Assembly (NCBI GenBank): GCA_024711025.1
Contig: JANJTP010000043.1
Coordinates: forward strand, 62,001-126,000
Origin: Solirubrobacteraceae bacterium
GTDB lineage: Bacteria > Actinomycetota > Thermoleophilia > Solirubrobacterales > Solirubrobacteraceae
Direction: 5' to 3'
Length of the DNA stretch: 64,000 bases
Part shown: positions 21,615 to 43,461 of the stretch, piece by piece
Layout: the number at the start of each line of letters is the position of its first letter
Position numbering within the stretch: the stretch's first letter is position 1
Translations under genes and position numbers: made by a program
Notes under the pieces: generated by a model
What the model saw: only the letters and a program-made list of their open reading frames with translations
Told to the model about the DNA's origin: nothing
Database searches by the model: none

Positions 21615-24422
21615 CTAGTCGTCCAGCGGCTCTCCCAGCCAGTCCCGATAGAACGTCTCGAGGTCCGGCAGGAAGTCATGGACGACCGGGTAGCCGGGCG
21701 GCACCGACTCGATGTCGAGCAGCGCCAGCGAGATGGGGTCGTAGTACTCGCGAAGCTCGTTCCACTCCGGGTCCGGGTACATCTTGTCGGGGAAGACCTC
21801 GAGCATCGCCTCGACGCTGCGGCGCACGTGGATCCGCGCGCCGAGCTTCCAGTTCTCACGGTAGTCGCCGAAGACGTGGCCGGAGTCGGACTTCACCACT
21901 CGCTCGCCGGACGGCAGCTCGACGATGCACAGGTGCAGGCCGAACGGCAGCAGCACGCGGTCCTCGGGGAAGGGCCACCGGCGCTGCACGATCCGCAGGT
22001 ACGTCCTGAAGCGCTCGCCGTCCTTGTAGCCGGACTGGAGCTGGCGGACCTGCGTGTCGGGCAGGGCGCCGTCGAGCAGCGCCTCCAGGGTCTCATCGGT
22101 CACCGGCTCGACCGATCCCGAGGTCCGGTGCGGAAGCTCCGCGCGAACCTCCGTTCGTGGCTGCCGCTGCAGGTCCTCGGGATCGCGACCGGCGAGCAGT
22201 CGCTCGGAGATCGCCACCGTCGGCGTCGGAACATCGAACAGGAACCCGTCGTCCAGGCCCCAGAAGGAGCGGAGCTCCCCGGCCCACTTCGGCGACAGGC
22301 GCATCGACTCGGCGTACATGCGCTGCACGGGCAGGATGAAGCGCTCGCCGCCGGTGGTCGCGTGGGCGAGCACCCGCTCGCGCTCTGCGGCCATCCACTC
22401 CGCGACCGGCACCGAGCGACGCTCGCGCTCGCGGCGCAGCTGGGCGCGACGCTCGGCCGTCGCCTGCTCGTCGAGCGTCCCGTCGCGGATCACGACGCCG
22501 TAGACCGACTCCGCGAGCCGCGCGATCAGGTACCCGCCGGCTACGTCGTCGACGACCGCGAGCGGCTCGCGCTCCAGCGGGTCGCCGATCCCGGCGCCGC
22601 CGCGCATCGGCGAGAGGTACAGATCGCCCTGGCGCATGGCCTCGGGCATCGTCAGCGTGCGCTGGTCGAAGTCGGCGCGCCCCTCGACTAGCGCCGCGAT
22701 CTGCGACTCCTCGGGGTTGCCGTCTGCCACCGGGTACGGCAGGCGCCCGCCGACCAGCTCGAAGATGCTCGACTCGCGGACGTTGTGGCGGTAGCTCGTC
22801 GCGCCCGGATACCCGCCCCAGAGGCCGGACTGCATCGTCACCCGCGCATTTCCGATGTTCTGGGTCTCGAAGAACTCGGTGCCCCAGCAGAGCCGCAGGC
22901 TCTCCCAGCCGGAGCCGCCGCGGAAGCGCCCCGAGCCCGCGGTCGAAGGCTTGACCGCCGCACCGAGGTAGAGGAACGGCTCGTTGATCTCCCAGACCTC
23001 GCAGTCGCCCATGTCACCCTGCGGGTTCCACATCGCCGCGGCGTAGTCGAGCCCGTCGGTGAACATCCGCGCGCCGCCACCGACGCACGAGATCGAGAAG
23101 TTGGTCGCCGCGGCCTGCTCGCCGTGGTGGTCGATGCCACCGCCCTGGAAGGTGTTGGCGGACATCGCGTACGGCGCCAGCACCTCCTCGACGAAGCCGC
23201 GGGCCTGGAGGCTCATCGACAGCGACTTGAGGACCCCGGTGAAGCTGGGCACGAGGAAGCGCCACGGCGAGCCGGTCGAGGCCTGCGGGTTCTGGTGGTT
23301 GGCCCATGAGCCCGGCGGGAAGTTCGTTCCGAGCGCGTAGTAGGCGCCGTCGTTGATCTTGTCGTTGGCGATCAGCGTCTGGGTGAGCAGCACCCAGAGC
23401 CCGCCCTGCATCGCCGCGGTCGTGCAGTTGGCCGAGTGGTAGCCCCACGACGAGGCGCCCTCGAGGTCGAGCTCCAGGCGCGCATCGGCCGTTACGCGAA
23501 CCTCGACCGGCGCATGCATGAGCGTGTCGACGCGCGCGTGCTGGGGCATCATCGGCTCGTCGGCCATCGTCAGCTCCGAGAACGCCGGAGCGCGATACCG
23601 GCCCGGGACGGCCATGTCGAACAGGCGCGTTCGGAACGACCGCCGGCCGTCCTCGATCAGCTCGGCACAGAACTGCAGGTAGGTGTCGACGCCGACGTCG
23701 TCGATCAGCGCCTCGACCTGGCGCCGGGCGAGCTGGCAGCCGGCGAGGCGGGTGCGCTCGTCGAGCGTCCAGTACTTGGAGAGGCGGGTGCCGCGTGCCG
23801 CAGCCTGGACGTGGTCCTTGAACAGCCGGTCGTTCGCCCCGATCTTCCGCGCGGGGATGTCGATGCCGTCCTCGAAGCGGCTGATCGGGCCGAGCGGCAG
23901 GCTTCCGGGGGTGCTGGCGCCGATCTCGATGACGTGCGTGACGCCGGCGACCCAGCCGACCAGCCGCCCCTCGTGGTGGATCGGGACGATCGTCTGCACG
24001 TCGGCGTTGTGGACGTCGCCGATCAGCGCGTCGTTGTTGCAGAAGATGTCGCCCGGGTTGATGCCGGGGTCGTCCTCGTAGCCCTCGCGGATCATGTACT
24101 TGATCGCGTCGGACATCGTGTGGACGTGCACGATGACGCCGGTCGAGAGCGCGACCGAGTCCCCTTCGGGCGTGTAGACGGCGAAGCAGAGCTCGCCCAG
24201 CTCCTTGACGATCGGGCTGGCCGAGATGTTGAGCGCCGTCTCGCGCGCGGTGACGAGGCCGCCGCGCAGGCGCGAGAAGACCTTCTCGAAGAGGATCGGC
24301 TCGCTCTCCTTGAGCTCGAGACGGCCGCTGAGCCCGGCGTAGGCGCCCGTGTCGTGGAAGAGGCGCTCGCGCTCCTCGAGCCGGCCGCGGAGGCTGAGCG
24401 TGGATTCGGTGATCGTGATCAT
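21615..24422 (-). CDS. Acetone-carboxylase-type alpha subunit fused to a gamma domain
   Basis: Residues 1 to about 760 align by eye along the whole acetone carboxylase alpha subunit: EPILFEKVFSRLRGGLVTAR, GDIFCNNDALIGDVHNAD, VGWVAGVTHVIEIGAS. Manganese ligands of the family (His, Asp, His) correspond to H138, D141 and H163. The last 170 residues match the small gamma subunit (FGDYRENWKLGARIHVRR, ESVPPGYPVVHDFLPDLETF), normally a separate protein. The gamma zinc site is lost: the usual CxC reads SDSGH and the CPGC segment reads DPIS. The enzyme class carboxylates a ketone to a 3-oxo acid with ATP hydrolysis. The substrate may not be acetone itself. It follows the beta subunit after 9 bases. 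Confidence 0.88.
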   Translation of the reverse strand: MITITESTLSLRGRLEERERLFHDTGAYAGLSGRLELKESEPILFEKVFSRLRGGLVTARETALNISASPIVKELGELCFAVYTPEGDSVALSTGVIVHVHTMSDAIKYMIREGYEDDPGINPGDIFCNNDALIGDVHNADVQTIVPIHHEGRLVGWVAGVTHVIEIGASTPGSLPLGPISRFEDGIDIPARKIGANDRLFKDHVQAAARGTRLSKYWTLDERTRLAGCQLARRQVEALIDDVGVDTYLQFCAELIEDGRRSFRTRLFDMAVPGRYRAPAFSELTMADEPMMPQHARVDTLMHAPVEVRVTADARLELDLEGASSWGYHSANCTTAAMQGGLWVLLTQTLIANDKINDGAYYALGTNFPPGSWANHQNPQASTGSPWRFLVPSFTGVLKSLSMSLQARGFVEEVLAPYAMSANTFQGGGIDHHGEQAAATNFSISCVGGGARMFTDGLDYAAAMWNPQGDMGDCEVWEINEPFLYLGAAVKPSTAGSGRFRGGSGWESLRLCWGTEFFETQNIGNARVTMQSGLWGGYPGATSYRHNVRESSIFELVGGRLPYPVADGNPEESQIAALVEGRADFDQRTLTMPEAMRQGDLYLSPMRGGAGIGDPLEREPLAVVDDVAGGYLIARLAESVYGVVIRDGTLDEQATAERRAQLRRERERRSVPVAEWMAAERERVLAHATTGGERFILPVQRMYAESMRLSPKWAGELRSFWGLDDGFLFDVPTPTVAISERLLAGRDPEDLQRQPRTEVRAELPHRTSGSVEPVTDETLEALLDGALPDTQVRQLQSGYKDGERFRTYLRIVQRRWPFPEDRVLLPFGLHLCIVELPSGERVVKSDSGHVFGDYRENWKLGARIHVRRSVEAMLEVFPDKMYPDPEWNELREYYDPISLALLDIESVPPGYPVVHDFLPDLETFYRDWLGEPLDD

Positions 24423-24431
24423 GGGGCTGCC

Positions 24432-26564
24432 TCAGTCCTTGCTGTCGCCGAGGTGGAAGATGCGGTGGCGGTCGAGGTCGGCCGTCCGGCCGGGCGGGAC
24501 CGCGAGCGTGGTCGAGGGGGACTCGACGATCGCCGGGCCGACGATCCGCTGGCCGGCTCGCACGTCGTCCTGCTCGAAGACGGGCGTCTCGACGGCGCGG
24601 CCCGTCTCGGTCCACCAGATCGATCGCGTCGCCTTCGGCTCCGCCGGGTGGTCGACGAGCGGCTCGTCGGGCAGGACCGGCTTCTCGACCGGCGCGGAGG
24701 CGATGACCGCAACGGCGGTGATCGCGTAGCCGAGCTCCGGTGAGCTGGCCCCCGTCGCGTAGATCTGCGCGTAGAGCTCCTCGAAGCGCTCGACGAGCGC
24801 CTCGAGGTCGTAGGGCCGCTCATCGGGCGCCGAGACCTCGATGTCGTTGAGCTGGCCGGCGTACTGCATCCGCACGAGCCGGCGGATCTGCACGTCACCG
24901 GCGTCGACGCCCGTACGCGTGAACGCCTCGACTCCCCGCTCGGCGAGCGCGCCCCATGCGTCCCGCAGCCGCTCGCCGACGTCACCGGGCCGGTCGGGAC
25001 GCACGTCGAGCGCGTAGGTCTGGTCGAAGCGGTAGGAGAAATCGGCGCACGCACAGCCGAACGCGGAGAAGCCGGCGGCCCAGGTCGGCACGAGGACGTC
25101 GGCGTACCCGGCGCCGCGCGTGTAGCCACCGACGTGCAGCGGACCGCCGCCGCCGTAGCAGAAGAGCGTGTAGTCGACGGTCGAGTAACCCTTGCCGAGG
25201 ACCCGGGCGAGCGCCGCGTAGCGAAGCTGCTCCTCGAACAGGTCGACGATCCCGCCGGCGGCCTGCTCGAGGTCGAGGCCCAGCGGATCGGCGATCTGGC
25301 GGCGCACCGCGGCCCGGGCACGCTCCATGTCCAGCGTCACGGCGCCGCCGAGGAAGTACTCGGCGTTGAGCCGCCCGAGGACGAGGTTCAGGTCGGTGAC
25401 GGTGACCGTCTCGACCCCGCCCTCAGGCCAGGCGGTGCCGATCCTGGCGCCAGCCGAGTCGGGGCCGATCTCCGGACGGTTGGACGACGGGTCGATGCGC
25501 ACGTACGAGCCTGTCCCCGCACCGATGGACTCGATCTCGACCATCGGCAGGTTGAGCAGGAAGCGGCCGATGTCGGGGGTCTGGCGGATCGTCAGCTCCC
25601 CCTCGTTGACGAGCGCCAGGTCGAAGCTGGTGCCGCCGATGTCCGAGCAGACGGCACGGTCGACGCCGAGCTCGTCGGCGAGGTGGCGAGCGCCGACGAC
25701 GCCGCCGATCGGCCCGGAGACGAGCGTGCGCGCCAGCTCGTTCGAGTCGATCGCGATCGTCCCGCCGTGGGCCGCCATGACGCGCAGGTCGAAGCCGGCG
25801 CCGGCGTCCGATACCGCCCGCTCGAGCTTGCCGAGCTGGTGGCGCGAGGGCTCGGCCGCGTAAGCCTCGATCAGCGTCGAGTTCAGGCGCGGGAAATCGC
25901 CGCGCAGCGGGTAGAGGAGCGCCGAGAGGAAGACGGGGACCGGCTCGCCGCCGCGCTCCCGCTGGACGTCGGCGATGATCTCGCCGACCCGCCGCTCATG
26001 CGCGGGGTTGACGAAGCTCTGCAGGAGGCAGACGACGATGCCCTGGACGCCGTCGTCCAGGAGGGCGCTCGCAGCCGCACGCGCCTCCTCCTCGTAGAGC
26101 GGGATCGCCTCGTTGCCGAAGACGTCGATCCGCCCGCGCACGCCCTTCATCCGGGAGCGCGGGACGAGCGGCTCGTTGTGGTAGTGCGTCGTGACGTGGA
26201 GGCGGTCCGAGTACGTCATGCCCAGCCAGGTCTGCAGCCCGCGCTCGAGCCGCAGGTAGTCCTCCAGGCCGGCGGAGACGATGCACCCGACCTGCTGGCC
26301 CTTGCGCTCGAGCAGGCGGTTGAGCATCGCCGTGCCGGAGAAGACGCCGGAGACGATCGACGGGAAGGCCTGCTCGGCGGTGGTGCCCCACTGCGCGAGC
26401 GCATCGTCGGTCGAGGCGAGCAGGCCGCGGGACTCGTCGTCGGGCGTCGTCTGGGCCTTGCCGACGACGAACGCGCCGTCGCTGTCGACGAGGAAGCTGT
26501 CGGTCATCGTCCCGCCGGCGTCGTAGGCGATGACGCGGGGGCTGCGGCGAATGGTCACGTCCAT
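24432..26564 (-). CDS. Acetone-carboxylase-type beta subunit (hydantoinase A family)
   Basis: The 710-residue protein matches the 717-residue beta subunit of acetone carboxylase. It opens with the phosphate loop AYDAGGTMTDSFLVDSDGAF and continues VVGKAQTTPDDESRGLLAST; the second ATPase loop is DIGGTSFDLALV, and SGPIGGVVGARHLADELGVD is the hydantoinase A core. This subunit uses ATP to phosphorylate the ketone and bicarbonate. It is the first gene after a divergent GntR regulator and has a near-consensus promoter (26658-26686). The alternative reading as an N-methylhydantoinase or 5-oxoprolinase subunit is less likely given the partner gene. Confidence 0.9.
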   Translation of the reverse strand: MDVTIRRSPRVIAYDAGGTMTDSFLVDSDGAFVVGKAQTTPDDESRGLLASTDDALAQWGTTAEQAFPSIVSGVFSGTAMLNRLLERKGQQVGCIVSAGLEDYLRLERGLQTWLGMTYSDRLHVTTHYHNEPLVPRSRMKGVRGRIDVFGNEAIPLYEEEARAAASALLDDGVQGIVVCLLQSFVNPAHERRVGEIIADVQRERGGEPVPVFLSALLYPLRGDFPRLNSTLIEAYAAEPSRHQLGKLERAVSDAGAGFDLRVMAAHGGTIAIDSNELARTLVSGPIGGVVGARHLADELGVDRAVCSDIGGTSFDLALVNEGELTIRQTPDIGRFLLNLPMVEIESIGAGTGSYVRIDPSSNRPEIGPDSAGARIGTAWPEGGVETVTVTDLNLVLGRLNAEYFLGGAVTLDMERARAAVRRQIADPLGLDLEQAAGGIVDLFEEQLRYAALARVLGKGYSTVDYTLFCYGGGGPLHVGGYTRGAGYADVLVPTWAAGFSAFGCACADFSYRFDQTYALDVRPDRPGDVGERLRDAWGALAERGVEAFTRTGVDAGDVQIRRLVRMQYAGQLNDIEVSAPDERPYDLEALVERFEELYAQIYATGASSPELGYAITAVAVIASAPVEKPVLPDEPLVDHPAEPKATRSIWWTETGRAVETPVFEQDDVRAGQRIVGPAIVESPSTTLAVPPGRTADLDRHRIFHLGDSKD

Positions 26565-26657
26565 GGGAACGGCGGCTCTCCTCGGAGGGGGGCGTCGGCG
26601 CTGTGGGAGCCCGCCGGCGACGGTGCGACGGGGCGGTCGGGCTGCGACCGCATGTAA

Positions 26658-26686
26658 TGAATACAGTGTGTGCGCTTATCTGTCAA
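26658..26686 (-). promoter_or_regulatory. Promoter of the carboxylase operon
   Basis: On the minus strand TTGACA (26681-26686) and TATTCA (26658-26663) are 17 bases apart. Spacer positions 6-13 read GCGCACAC, matching the GCGTACAY found in the same register in the two SDR promoters at 41.4 and 42.3 kb. Confidence 0.7.
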
Positions 26687-26711: not shown

Positions 26712-26741
26712 TTGCATCCATAGGATGCAGGCGGTTAGACT
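26712..26741 (+). promoter_or_regulatory. Promoter and autoregulatory palindrome of the GntR gene
   Basis: TTGCAT (26712-26717) and TAGACT (26736-26741) are 18 bases apart and the ATG follows after six bases, so the mRNA is probably leaderless. A perfect 7-bp inverted repeat, TGCATCC (26713-26719) and GGATGCA (26723-26729), overlaps the -35 box and is a likely binding site for the regulator itself. Confidence 0.6.
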
Positions 26742-26747
26742 GCGGAC

Positions 26748-27461
26748 ATGCCGCCCAAGACCGTCGACGACGAGCCGCTCCCACTCGATCTCTCGCTCGA
26801 CGGCGCCGAGGCCGACGAGCCGCTCGTCGACTCGGTCTACCGCGCGCTGCGCGACGCGATCTGCGACGGGCGGCTCGAGGCGAACCGCAAGCTCGCCCAG
26901 ATCCCACTCGCCGAGTACCTGGGGATCTCGCGCACGCCGGTGCGCGACGCGCTCCAGCGACTCGCGCAGGAGGGCCTCGTCCGTGCGGTCTCCTGGCGCG
27001 GCTTCGTCGTCAGCGAGTTCTCCTCGCGCGACGTGCTCGACATCTACGAGGTGCGCATCGCGCTCGAGCCGCTGGCGGTCGGCGATGCCGTCCCGCGCTA
27101 CACGCGGATGGACGTCGCGCGCCTCGCCGACAACTGCGCCTCGCTCGCCGCGACGCCGGTCGAGGACGTCGGCCGCCTCTACGACCTCAACAGCGAGTTC
27201 CACCGCGAGCTCGTCGCGCCCAGCGACAACCGGCTGCTCGTGCGGCTGCTCGACCAGCTCTGGCAGATGCCCGCCTCGCTGCGGCTCTTCCACGCTCAGG
27301 CGGCGCTCGGCACCGCCCTCAAGGAAAGCGTCGTCGCCCACCGCGGGATCGTCGCGGCGATCGAGGCCGGCGACGTCGAGCTTGCGGTCGAGCGCACGCG
27401 CGAGCACATCCGCCGCGCCCAGCTCGAGACGATCGACGCGCTCGACGAGCCGGCGCGCTGA
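26748..27461 (+). CDS. GntR-family (FadR-type, FCD domain) transcriptional regulator
   Basis: The 237-residue protein has a winged helix at about 25-95 (VDSVYRALRDAICDGRLEAN, LAEYLGISRTPVRDALQRLA) and an all-helical FCD effector domain (DIYEVRIALEPLAVGDAVPR, SEFHRELVAPSDNRLLVRLL, ESVVAHRGIVAAIEAGDVEL). The FCD domain normally binds a carboxylic acid, often through a metal held by Asp and His residues. Its position divergent from the carboxylase genes makes it the probable regulator of those genes and, through the shared promoter word, of the SDR-led operon. Confidence 0.92.
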   Translation: MPPKTVDDEPLPLDLSLDGAEADEPLVDSVYRALRDAICDGRLEANRKLAQIPLAEYLGISRTPVRDALQRLAQEGLVRAVSWRGFVVSEFSSRDVLDIYEVRIALEPLAVGDAVPRYTRMDVARLADNCASLAATPVEDVGRLYDLNSEFHRELVAPSDNRLLVRLLDQLWQMPASLRLFHAQAALGTALKESVVAHRGIVAAIEAGDVELAVERTREHIRRAQLETIDALDEPAR

Positions 27462-29435: not shown

Positions 29436-29563
29436 GGGGCGACCGGCCGCGTTGACTGTGTTTGATGCATTCACTTGCGTGCTCCAGCTTCTACCGTGTT
29501 CTCCTAGGACAGCAGCTCGACGCTCGGGGCCCATGCCGGCGCGGGCCCGCCGTCCGGCGAGCC

Positions 29564-40564: not shown

Positions 40565-41326
40565 TCAGGGCATTGGGGCGATGGCGGTCTGACCGCCATC
40601 GACGAACAGCGTCGAGCCCGTCAGGAAGTCGGGCGCGTCGGTCGCCAGGTAGGCGATGAAGCCGGCGAGCTCCTCAGGGCGGCCGAGGCGCGCCAGCGGG
40701 TTGATCCGCCGCAGATCCTCCGGGGTCGCCGCCTCGACGAACTCGGCGATCATCGGCGTGTCGACCCAGCCGGGCGCCACCGCGGTGACCGCGATGCCGT
40801 GCTCGGCCAGGTCGACGGCCATCGACCGGGCAACCGAGATAATCGCGGCCTTGGCCGCGCTGTAGTGGGCGGTCTCGGGCTCCGAGACGGCACCGTTGAT
40901 CGATGAGATCAGGATGATCCGCCCGTGGCCGGCGTCGCGCATGCGCCGGGCGGCAGCGACCGCGCACAGGACGCTGCCACGCAGCACGACGTCGAGGCAG
41001 CGGTCCCACGCGTCGGCCGTCATGTCGAGGATGTGAACGGGCTCGAAGCTTGCCGCCGCAGTGACGAGGACGTCGATCGAGCCGAAGCGGTCGGCCGCTT
41101 CGGCGACCAGCGCCTCGCAATCCTCGGGGCGGCCGACGTCTGCGACGCGGTGCTCGATGACCGCGCCGGGCACGGCCGCACGCACCTGACGGCACGCATC
41201 CTCGAGCGCCTCTTCGCGGCGCCCACCGATCAGCACTGCCAGGCCGGCCGCCGCGAGCGCCTGGGCGCTGGCGAGGCCGATGCCGCTGCCACCTCCGGTG
41301 ACGACGGCGACCGATCGCTCACTCAT
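40565..41326 (-). CDS. Short-chain dehydrogenase/reductase (first gene of the long operon)
   Basis: The 253-residue SDR has the nucleotide loop VAVVTGGGSGIGLASAQALA, the catalytic Ser in IILISSINGAVSEPETAHYS and the Tyr-x3-Lys pair YSAAK, with VAPGWVDTPMI after it. An AGGAG ribosome-binding site precedes the ATG at 41326. The basic residues after the first strand (GGRREE) favour NADP(H). Its promoter is nearly identical to that of the next SDR. A role in oxidising an alcohol to a ketone in the same pathway is inference. Confidence 0.92.
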   Translation of the reverse strand: MSERSVAVVTGGGSGIGLASAQALAAAGLAVLIGGRREEALEDACRQVRAAVPGAVIEHRVADVGRPEDCEALVAEAADRFGSIDVLVTAAASFEPVHILDMTADAWDRCLDVVLRGSVLCAVAAARRMRDAGHGRIILISSINGAVSEPETAHYSAAKAAIISVARSMAVDLAEHGIAVTAVAPGWVDTPMIAEFVEAATPEDLRRINPLARLGRPEELAGFIAYLATDAPDFLTGSTLFVDGGQTAIAPMP

Positions 41327-41423: not shown

Positions 41424-41452
41424 AGAATATCCGGTGTACGCGCTGCATGCAA
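41424..41452 (-). promoter_or_regulatory. Promoter of the SDR-transporter-mutase operon
   Basis: On the minus strand TTGCAT (41447-41452) and TATTCT (41424-41429) flank a 17-base spacer that contains GCGTACAC at positions 6-13. The region 41427-41454 matches 42337-42364 at 24 of 28 bases. The leader to the ATG is about 90 bases and shows no riboswitch-like fold. Confidence 0.75.
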
Positions 41453-41457
41453 GTAGT

Positions 41458-41498
41458 AAAAGGGCCTCCGCCCCAGCCCGGAACCCGGGCTGGGGCGG
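41458..41498 (-). terminator. Intrinsic terminator after the second SDR
   Basis: A perfect 14-bp stem (CCGCCCCAGCCCGG at 41468-41481 and its complement at 41485-41498) with a 3-base loop is followed, in the minus direction, by a short TTTT tract. It separates the second SDR from the next promoter. Confidence 0.85.
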
Positions 41499-41502
41499 CA
41501 GC

Positions 41503-42252
41503 TCACTGCGCCAAGAAGCCCCCGTCGATGATCAGCTCGGTGCCGGTTATGTACGAGGCCTCGTCCGATGCCAGGAAGAGCACTCCCTGCGAGATCTCCC
41601 GTGGCTGCGCGCCGCGCTTCATCGGCGTCGCCTCGGCGACGGCCCGCTCCACCTCGGGCCCCTCCTCGGCGCTCATCGGCGTCAGGACCAGGCCCGGACA
41701 GACGCTGTTGACGCGGATCCCGTCGCCGACGTGCGTCAATGCCGCGCTCTTGGTCATCAGCGCCACCGCGCCCTTGCTCGCCTGGTAGGCGATGTACTCC
41801 TCCGCGCCGACGAGCCCCCAGATCGAGGACGTGTTGACGATCGAGCCGGTCCCGGCCCGCTGCATGGCTGGAATCGCCGCCTTCATGCCGAGGAAGACGC
41901 CGGTTTGATTGACGGCGATCACCTGCGCCCAGTGCTCCTCGGTCTCGTCGAGGATGCTCGGCATCCCGAGGATCCCGGCGTTGTTCACGAGCACGTCGAG
42001 CTTCCCGTAGAGCTTCTCCGCGAGGGCGACGGCCGCCTGCCAGTCGGCGCTGCGGGTCACGTCGAGGCGTGTATACGTGACATCGAAGCCTCGCTCGGAA
42101 AGGGCGCCCGCCGTCGCCTCGCCTTCGGCATCGAGGATGTCGCCGAGCACCACGCTGGCGCCCTGCTCCGCGAAGAGCTCGGCATGAGAGGCCCCCTGTC
42201 CCCGTGCTGCCCCCGAGATCAGGGCGACCTTCCCAGTCAACCGACCGCTCAT
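41503..42252 (-). CDS. Short-chain dehydrogenase/reductase (monocistronic)
   Basis: The 249-residue SDR has VALISGAARGQGASHAELFA as its nucleotide loop, an Asp after the second strand (VVLGDILDAEGEA) that favours NAD, the LVNNAGILG motif, catalytic Ser (IVNTSSIWGLVGAEEY) and the pair YQASK. The C-terminal ELIIDGGFLAQ is standard. It has its own promoter and terminator. The promoter match to the long operon suggests shared control and a related oxidation step. Confidence 0.92.
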   Translation of the reverse strand: MSGRLTGKVALISGAARGQGASHAELFAEQGASVVLGDILDAEGEATAGALSERGFDVTYTRLDVTRSADWQAAVALAEKLYGKLDVLVNNAGILGMPSILDETEEHWAQVIAVNQTGVFLGMKAAIPAMQRAGTGSIVNTSSIWGLVGAEEYIAYQASKGAVALMTKSAALTHVGDGIRVNSVCPGLVLTPMSAEEGPEVERAVAEATPMKRGAQPREISQGVLFLASDEASYITGTELIIDGGFLAQ

Positions 42253-42333
42253 CTGCAACCTCTCCTCTCGAAGGCGTGCGCCTGCCGGGGCACGGGATCG
42301 TCGATCTGCCATCACCCGACAACGACGCATGAG

Positions 42334-42362
42334 TTTATATCCGATGTACGCATTGGATGCAA
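42334..42362 (-). promoter_or_regulatory. Promoter of the second SDR
   Basis: TTGCAT (42357-42362) and TATAAA (42334-42339) are 17 bases apart on the minus strand. The spacer carries GCGTACAT at positions 6-13, as in the promoter at 41424-41452. Confidence 0.78.
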
Positions 42363-42395
42363 GTCTCATTCGCCACGACACGCGTGGTTCCTCGC

Positions 42396-43409: not shown

Positions 43410-43461
43410 GGCCCGCGTACTGTATATGCTGAATTCGATTCTTGGGGAGGAGCGAGAGACG

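Follow-up and report, generated by a model that had tools for sequence, protein, structure and literature searches.

A predicted two-box operator at four promoters of a catabolic gene cluster and its candidate GntR regulator

Analysis of a 64 kb window (64,000 nucleotides, the whole stretch of DNA studied here) indicated that a GntR regulator very probably controls the catabolic cluster at 21615-43454, turning it on and off as one unit. In the reading that we consider likely, the FCD-type GntR protein with its gene at 26748 represses four promoters of the cluster, its regulon, through a 17-bp two-box operator, and a metabolite releases it. Four predicted operators, spread over 15 kb, are located at the promoters of gntR, hyuAB, SDR1 and SDR2, and the unit conserved among them, as read from the aligned sequences, is a 17-bp site consisting of two 8-bp boxes at a 9-bp pitch, TGNATNCA-N-TGNRTNCA. 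Because the sites are conserved, overlie promoter-like sequence and co-occur with gntR, we infer that the GntR protein would bind this motif at gntR, hyuAB, SDR1 (along with the downstream transporter genes) and SDR2. When the inducer is absent, bound GntR would cover either the -35 element and the spacer or the spacer and the -10 element, blocking RNA polymerase, and it would also repress its own gene. Release would then come from a metabolite of the pathway, and by analogy with other FCD regulators this is probably a small organic acid.

The region 21615-43454 is an unusual catabolic cluster, which includes two glutamine-synthetase-like proteins, a peptidase-C26 hydrolase, MutL, a B12-binding mutase-like protein, HyuAB with a fused acetone-carboxylase-gamma domain, CaiB, a thiolase and a polyamine-type transporter. 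Both hyuA (24432-26564, minus strand) and hyuB (21615-24422, minus strand) belong to the hydantoinase/acetone-carboxylase family and together span 21615-26564. SDR1 (40565-41326, minus strand), followed on the same strand by the polyamine-type transporter genes, and SDR2 (41503-42252, minus strand) are adjacent paralogues. Between SDR2 and SDR1, and ending just before the SDR1 promoter, lies a perfect stem-loop of 14 bp that has a short run of T on the minus strand (41468-41498). It is likely to be a terminator, and the separation of SDR2 from SDR1 would explain why SDR1 and the transporter genes behind it have a promoter and operator of their own. A literature search on the combination of hydantoinase, glutamate mutase, GntR and polyamine returned nothing. 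Should the proposed regulon be correct, an uncharacterised FCD regulator would gain a defined predicted operator and regulon, and the hydantoinase/carboxylase, the glutamine-synthetase-like enzymes, the B12-binding mutase-like protein, the polyamine-type transporter and the SDRs could be assigned to one pathway and tested jointly.

The predicted operator at the gntR promoter (26713-26729, plus strand), which was missing from the sites listed in the initial annotation, reads TGCATCC-ATA-GGATGCA. Of the four sites it has the lowest position-weight-matrix score (11.6 bits), its support being the perfect 17-bp dyad and its counterpart in the orthologous promoter of G173, a genome of another family (TGCATGCACCAAATTCA). 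The proposed gntR -10 element (TAGACT, in the 26736-26748 region) stops 6 bases before the ATG, which would leave the gntR mRNA with little or no leader. At hyuAB, the predicted operator (26658-26674, plus strand, with the hyu promoter on the opposite strand) reads TGAATACA-G-TGTGTGCG, with a weaker third box, CGCATGTA, at 26649-26656; its 17 bases are identical in G173 (TGAATACAGTGTGTGCG), and the identity stops at the motif boundaries. The sites at SDR1 (41435-41451, minus strand) and SDR2 (42345-42361, minus strand) read TGCATGCA-G-CGCGTACA and TGCATCCA-A-TGCGTACA, respectively, the latter being an exact consensus match, and their G173 counterparts are CTTGCATTCAACGAGTGCACCGGATAT and GTTGCATGCAGTGAGTTCATTTGCTAG. 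Promoter-like sequences, assigned from the letters alone, are TTGACA-N17-TATTCA for hyuAB (26658-26686, minus strand), TTGCAT-N17-TATTCT for SDR1 (41424-41452, minus strand) and TTGCAT-N17-TATAAA for SDR2 (42334-42362, minus strand). A strict consensus promoter scan flagged none of these three; they match the sigma-70 consensus poorly, and the exact -35 and -10 elements are therefore uncertain.

The operator covers the -35 element and the spacer at SDR1, SDR2 and gntR, and the spacer and the -10 element, on the opposite strand, at hyu, an arrangement that favours repression by occlusion. GntR may alternatively act as an activator, or as both repressor and activator, at some of the promoters, since at SDR1, SDR2 and gntR the sites overlap a poor -35 element (TTGCAT), where an activator could assist polymerase. 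We regard this as unlikely, because the site runs through the spacer, and over the -10 element at hyu, positions that usually block polymerase, and FCD regulators of catabolic clusters are mostly repressors.

The proposed repressor (26748-27461, plus strand) contains a GntR-type winged helix (Pfam GntR, 1.6e-15) and a C-terminal FCD domain (5.4e-25), both matches exceeding the gathering score, which places the protein in the FadR (FCD) subfamily, and the DNA-binding domain is preceded by an N-terminal stretch of about 26 residues. The best NCBIfam match, PhnR (TIGR03338), scored 93.8 bits, under the curated cut-off of 271.5, and the NanR-family score was 46.6 against a cut-off of 260 bits. By sequence, the nearest solved structures are FCD-type GntR proteins such as 3fms, 3sxy, 6z74 and McbR. 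Among 232 genomes of its order, a single close relative turned up, with 67% identity, in G173, besides six proteins of 41-47% identity; no further close GntR was present in 396 genomes sampled across the phylum, and a scan of contigs with the GntR protein gave two distant relatives only, one of them in an Acidimicrobiaceae MAG.

The motif was derived by comparison with the syntenic cluster of G173 and with eight further genomes. The G173 cluster has the same gene order, with identities of 82% for HyuB/HyuA, 68% for GntR, 77% for CaiB, 77% for the B12-binding mutase-like protein, 68-77% for the transporter, 69% for SDR1 and 77% for SDR2. In six more distant genomes gntR is directly followed by hyuA, and each gntR-hyuA junction carries one of TGAATGCACTGTGTACA, TGAATACATTGTGTGCA, TGAATTCATTGTGTACA, TGAATTCAGTGTGTGCA, TGAATTCATTGTGTACG and TGTATTCACTGTGTTCA. 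In these distant genomes a mere 12-20 bases or so separate the hyu site from the start codon that follows, and at this position it could serve as a roadblock as well. Two genomes, G001 and G185, additionally carry TGTATTCATTGCATACC and TGTATTCATTCCATACA at a TTGACA-N17-TATTCA promoter before potC, the same arrangement as in the hyuAB promoter. Two boxes at a 9-bp pitch occur in all sites; the Acidimicrobiaceae MAG has three tandem boxes at this pitch before hyuA, and three are also seen, weakly, at the hyu site of the window and before potC in G185. In 19 aligned sites, T1, G2, C7, A8 and T14 are invariant.

An earlier candidate motif, TGCATNCA-N5-TNCA, has three occurrences in the 64 kb window and another three in the G173 contig of 46 kb, and each set consists of the sites before gntR, SDR1 and SDR2. 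It fits the gntR and SDR sites of both syntenic genomes, is absent from the more distant contigs and is unspecific genome-wide at one mismatch (42 matches versus 70 in the reversed control), and the two-box motif was adopted in its place.

With a leave-one-genome-out matrix, which provides the independent test, the hyu site was the best position in 10 of 10 contigs (3 to 64 kb), scoring 18 to 30 bits; in the window itself, it was followed in rank by the neighbouring hyu box, SDR1 and SDR2. Across 30 hyuA loci (58-100% identity), the motif was present with 0-1 mismatch within 260 bp upstream in all nine that adjoin a gntR homologue and in none of the 21 without an adjacent gntR, where the best matches had 4-5 mismatches, the same as in shuffled sequence (Fisher p = 7e-8 for co-occurrence). 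At up to one mismatch, the window contains six two-box matches when both strands are counted, versus 0.08 expected. At the same tolerance the motif occurs at five places in its own genome, four in the cluster and the fifth on another contig, C60, and at six in G173, four of them on the cluster contig; exact matches were found in 17 of the 232 genomes of the order, eight of these at a gntR-hyuA cluster. Genome-wide specificity was assessed by pattern searches rather than matrix scores, and both it and the association test are not fully independent, as some of the test genomes had also served to refine the motif.

Co-occurrence is not binding, and the motif does not contain the conserved GT..AC of the FadR-subfamily consensus; the sites may thus be real and be bound by another regulator encoded elsewhere, the GntR neighbour being incidental. 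This appears quite improbable in view of the perfect co-occurrence with gntR over the 30 hyuA loci, the presence of a site before gntR itself in both syntenic genomes and the targeting, genome-wide, of the cluster alone.

Binding by the neighbouring GntR protein is accordingly the reading that we prefer for the shared sequence at these promoters, which the initial annotation had described as a spacer word, GCGYACAY, common to the hyu (carboxylase), SDR1 and SDR2 promoters. The three words are present as described (3 found at up to 2 mismatches, versus 0.19 expected), and the 17-base spacing is correct at all three promoters. A genome-wide scan for TTG-N8-GCGYACAY-N4-TAT gave exactly three matches in 3.14 Mb, the three named promoters, and the same three places only at up to one mismatch, with 0 in the reversed control. 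The rarity holds for the word beside TTG and TAT, whereas GCGYACAY alone occurs 13 times in the window versus 11.5 expected. The reported match of 24 of 28 bases between the SDR promoters was recovered at a 2-3-base shift (41427-41454 and 42337-42364), but 41424-41452 and 42334-42362 agree in 22 of 29. The spacer is indeed conserved; the conservation is not limited to it, since the -35 element is conserved too.

As the operator core, GCGYACAY had to be abandoned, as it is not kept in G173, where the orthologous promoters read GAGTGCAC, GAGTTCAT and TCGCACAC, and it stands in the wrong register at hyu, where a motif built without the window's own genome scored -12 bits in the claimed register and +24.9 in the true one. 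At the SDR promoters the word (as GCGTACAY) is the second box with its flank, while GCGCACAC at the hyu promoter is the second box reverse-complemented and shifted by 2 bp, the first box overlapping the -10 element. The three-way alignment of the word is partly accidental, the predicted shared operator is not. Although wrong in the detail of the word, the proposal of an operator that overlaps these promoters, is tied to the GntR gene at 26748 and links genes 15 kb apart receives strong support from comparative genomics.

The likeness might also reflect only shared promoter sequence recognised by a sigma factor, or a duplicated SDR promoter, given that SDR1 and SDR2 are adjacent paralogues and that the -35 element TTGCAT is part of the match. 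This is very improbable, however, as the motif positions stay constant while the -10 element changes (TATAAA at SDR2 here, TAGGGT in G173), the hyu site stands in a shifted position and the opposite orientation with respect to its promoter, and the rest of the genome is almost free of the pattern. That the period-3 spacing of the variable positions (3, 6, 9, 12 and 15 in the aligned sites) betrays a conserved short coding sequence is refuted for the main sites, and has a negligible chance overall, as many hyu sites start with the stop codon TGA in that frame and the main sites are intergenic and lie on either strand relative to neighbouring genes.

The predicted operator belongs with the FadR/VanR-type GntR operators, in a conserved two-box form at a 9-bp pitch. 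Atu1419 of Agrobacterium fabrum is a VanR-type FCD GntR repressor with the palindromic operator ATGTATACAT, whose sites lie over the -10 element or between -10 and -35 and which controls its own gene and neighbouring catabolic genes (PMC7797058). The regulator studied here is likewise of the FCD type and shares the 8-bp frame (TGNATNCA fits TGTATACA), but box positions 3 and 6 are free, and two boxes at a 9-bp pitch replace single palindromes far apart. In the case of NanR, an FCD GntR protein of Escherichia coli, several dimers bind closely spaced GGTATA direct repeats cooperatively (PMC8012715). Both systems share a fixed pitch between two or three neighbouring boxes, as well as an N-terminal stretch before the DNA-binding domain, whereas the boxes here are palindromic TGNATNCA rather than GGTATA direct repeats. 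FadR-subfamily operators are palindromes before the regulator gene and target operons, with extra half-sites 7-12 nt from the main site centre and the consensus TKGT-N2-3-ACMA, and exceptions within the subfamily have been described (PMC4494728). In contrast, the motif here retains just the G and C of GT..AC, and its second box comes close to the first in strength. The sites likewise depart from the FadR-subfamily operator consensus GTM-N0-1-KAC, box positions 3 and 6 being free, which bears on the operator and not on the membership of the protein.

It is conceivable, though we hold this only tentatively, that each 8-bp TGNATNCA box is a full palindrome for one GntR dimer and that two to three dimers stack at the 9-bp pitch, about one helical turn, to give cooperative, switch-like control of the cluster, the equivalent in palindromic boxes of NanR's repeat operator. 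Since the boxes are self-complementary, covariation cannot distinguish a single dimer on the 17-bp site from a pair of dimers, one on each 8-bp box. The fixed-pitch two-box architecture offers a clean case for studying GntR dimer packing on DNA.

Two weak candidate sites in the window are not established. The first (43421-43437, minus strand, CGAATTCAGCATATACA) lies between curA and the enoyl-CoA hydratase gene and scored 19.3 bits leave-one-out, inside the range of shuffled maxima. The second (29457-29473, minus strand, TGAATGCATCAAACACA; 16.8 bits) is found where the peptidase-C26 (GATase) gene begins; a comparably weak site occupies this gene start in G173 too, but it overlaps codons. The same genome harbours a paralogous cluster on another contig (L110, G000:C62:29000-43000), with identities of 69% for HyuA, 75% for HyuB, 60% for CaiB, 48% for the GATase and 36% for GntR, and a transporter also present. 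This paralogous cluster, which served as an internal control, lacks the operator; each of two related pathways may be under its own GntR regulator, with a site of its own kind. In G173, a strong double box, TATATTCACTGAATGCA (L079, G173:C80:25261-25277), precedes an acetoacetate-decarboxylase-like gene located before curA, which suggests that the regulon is larger in that genome.
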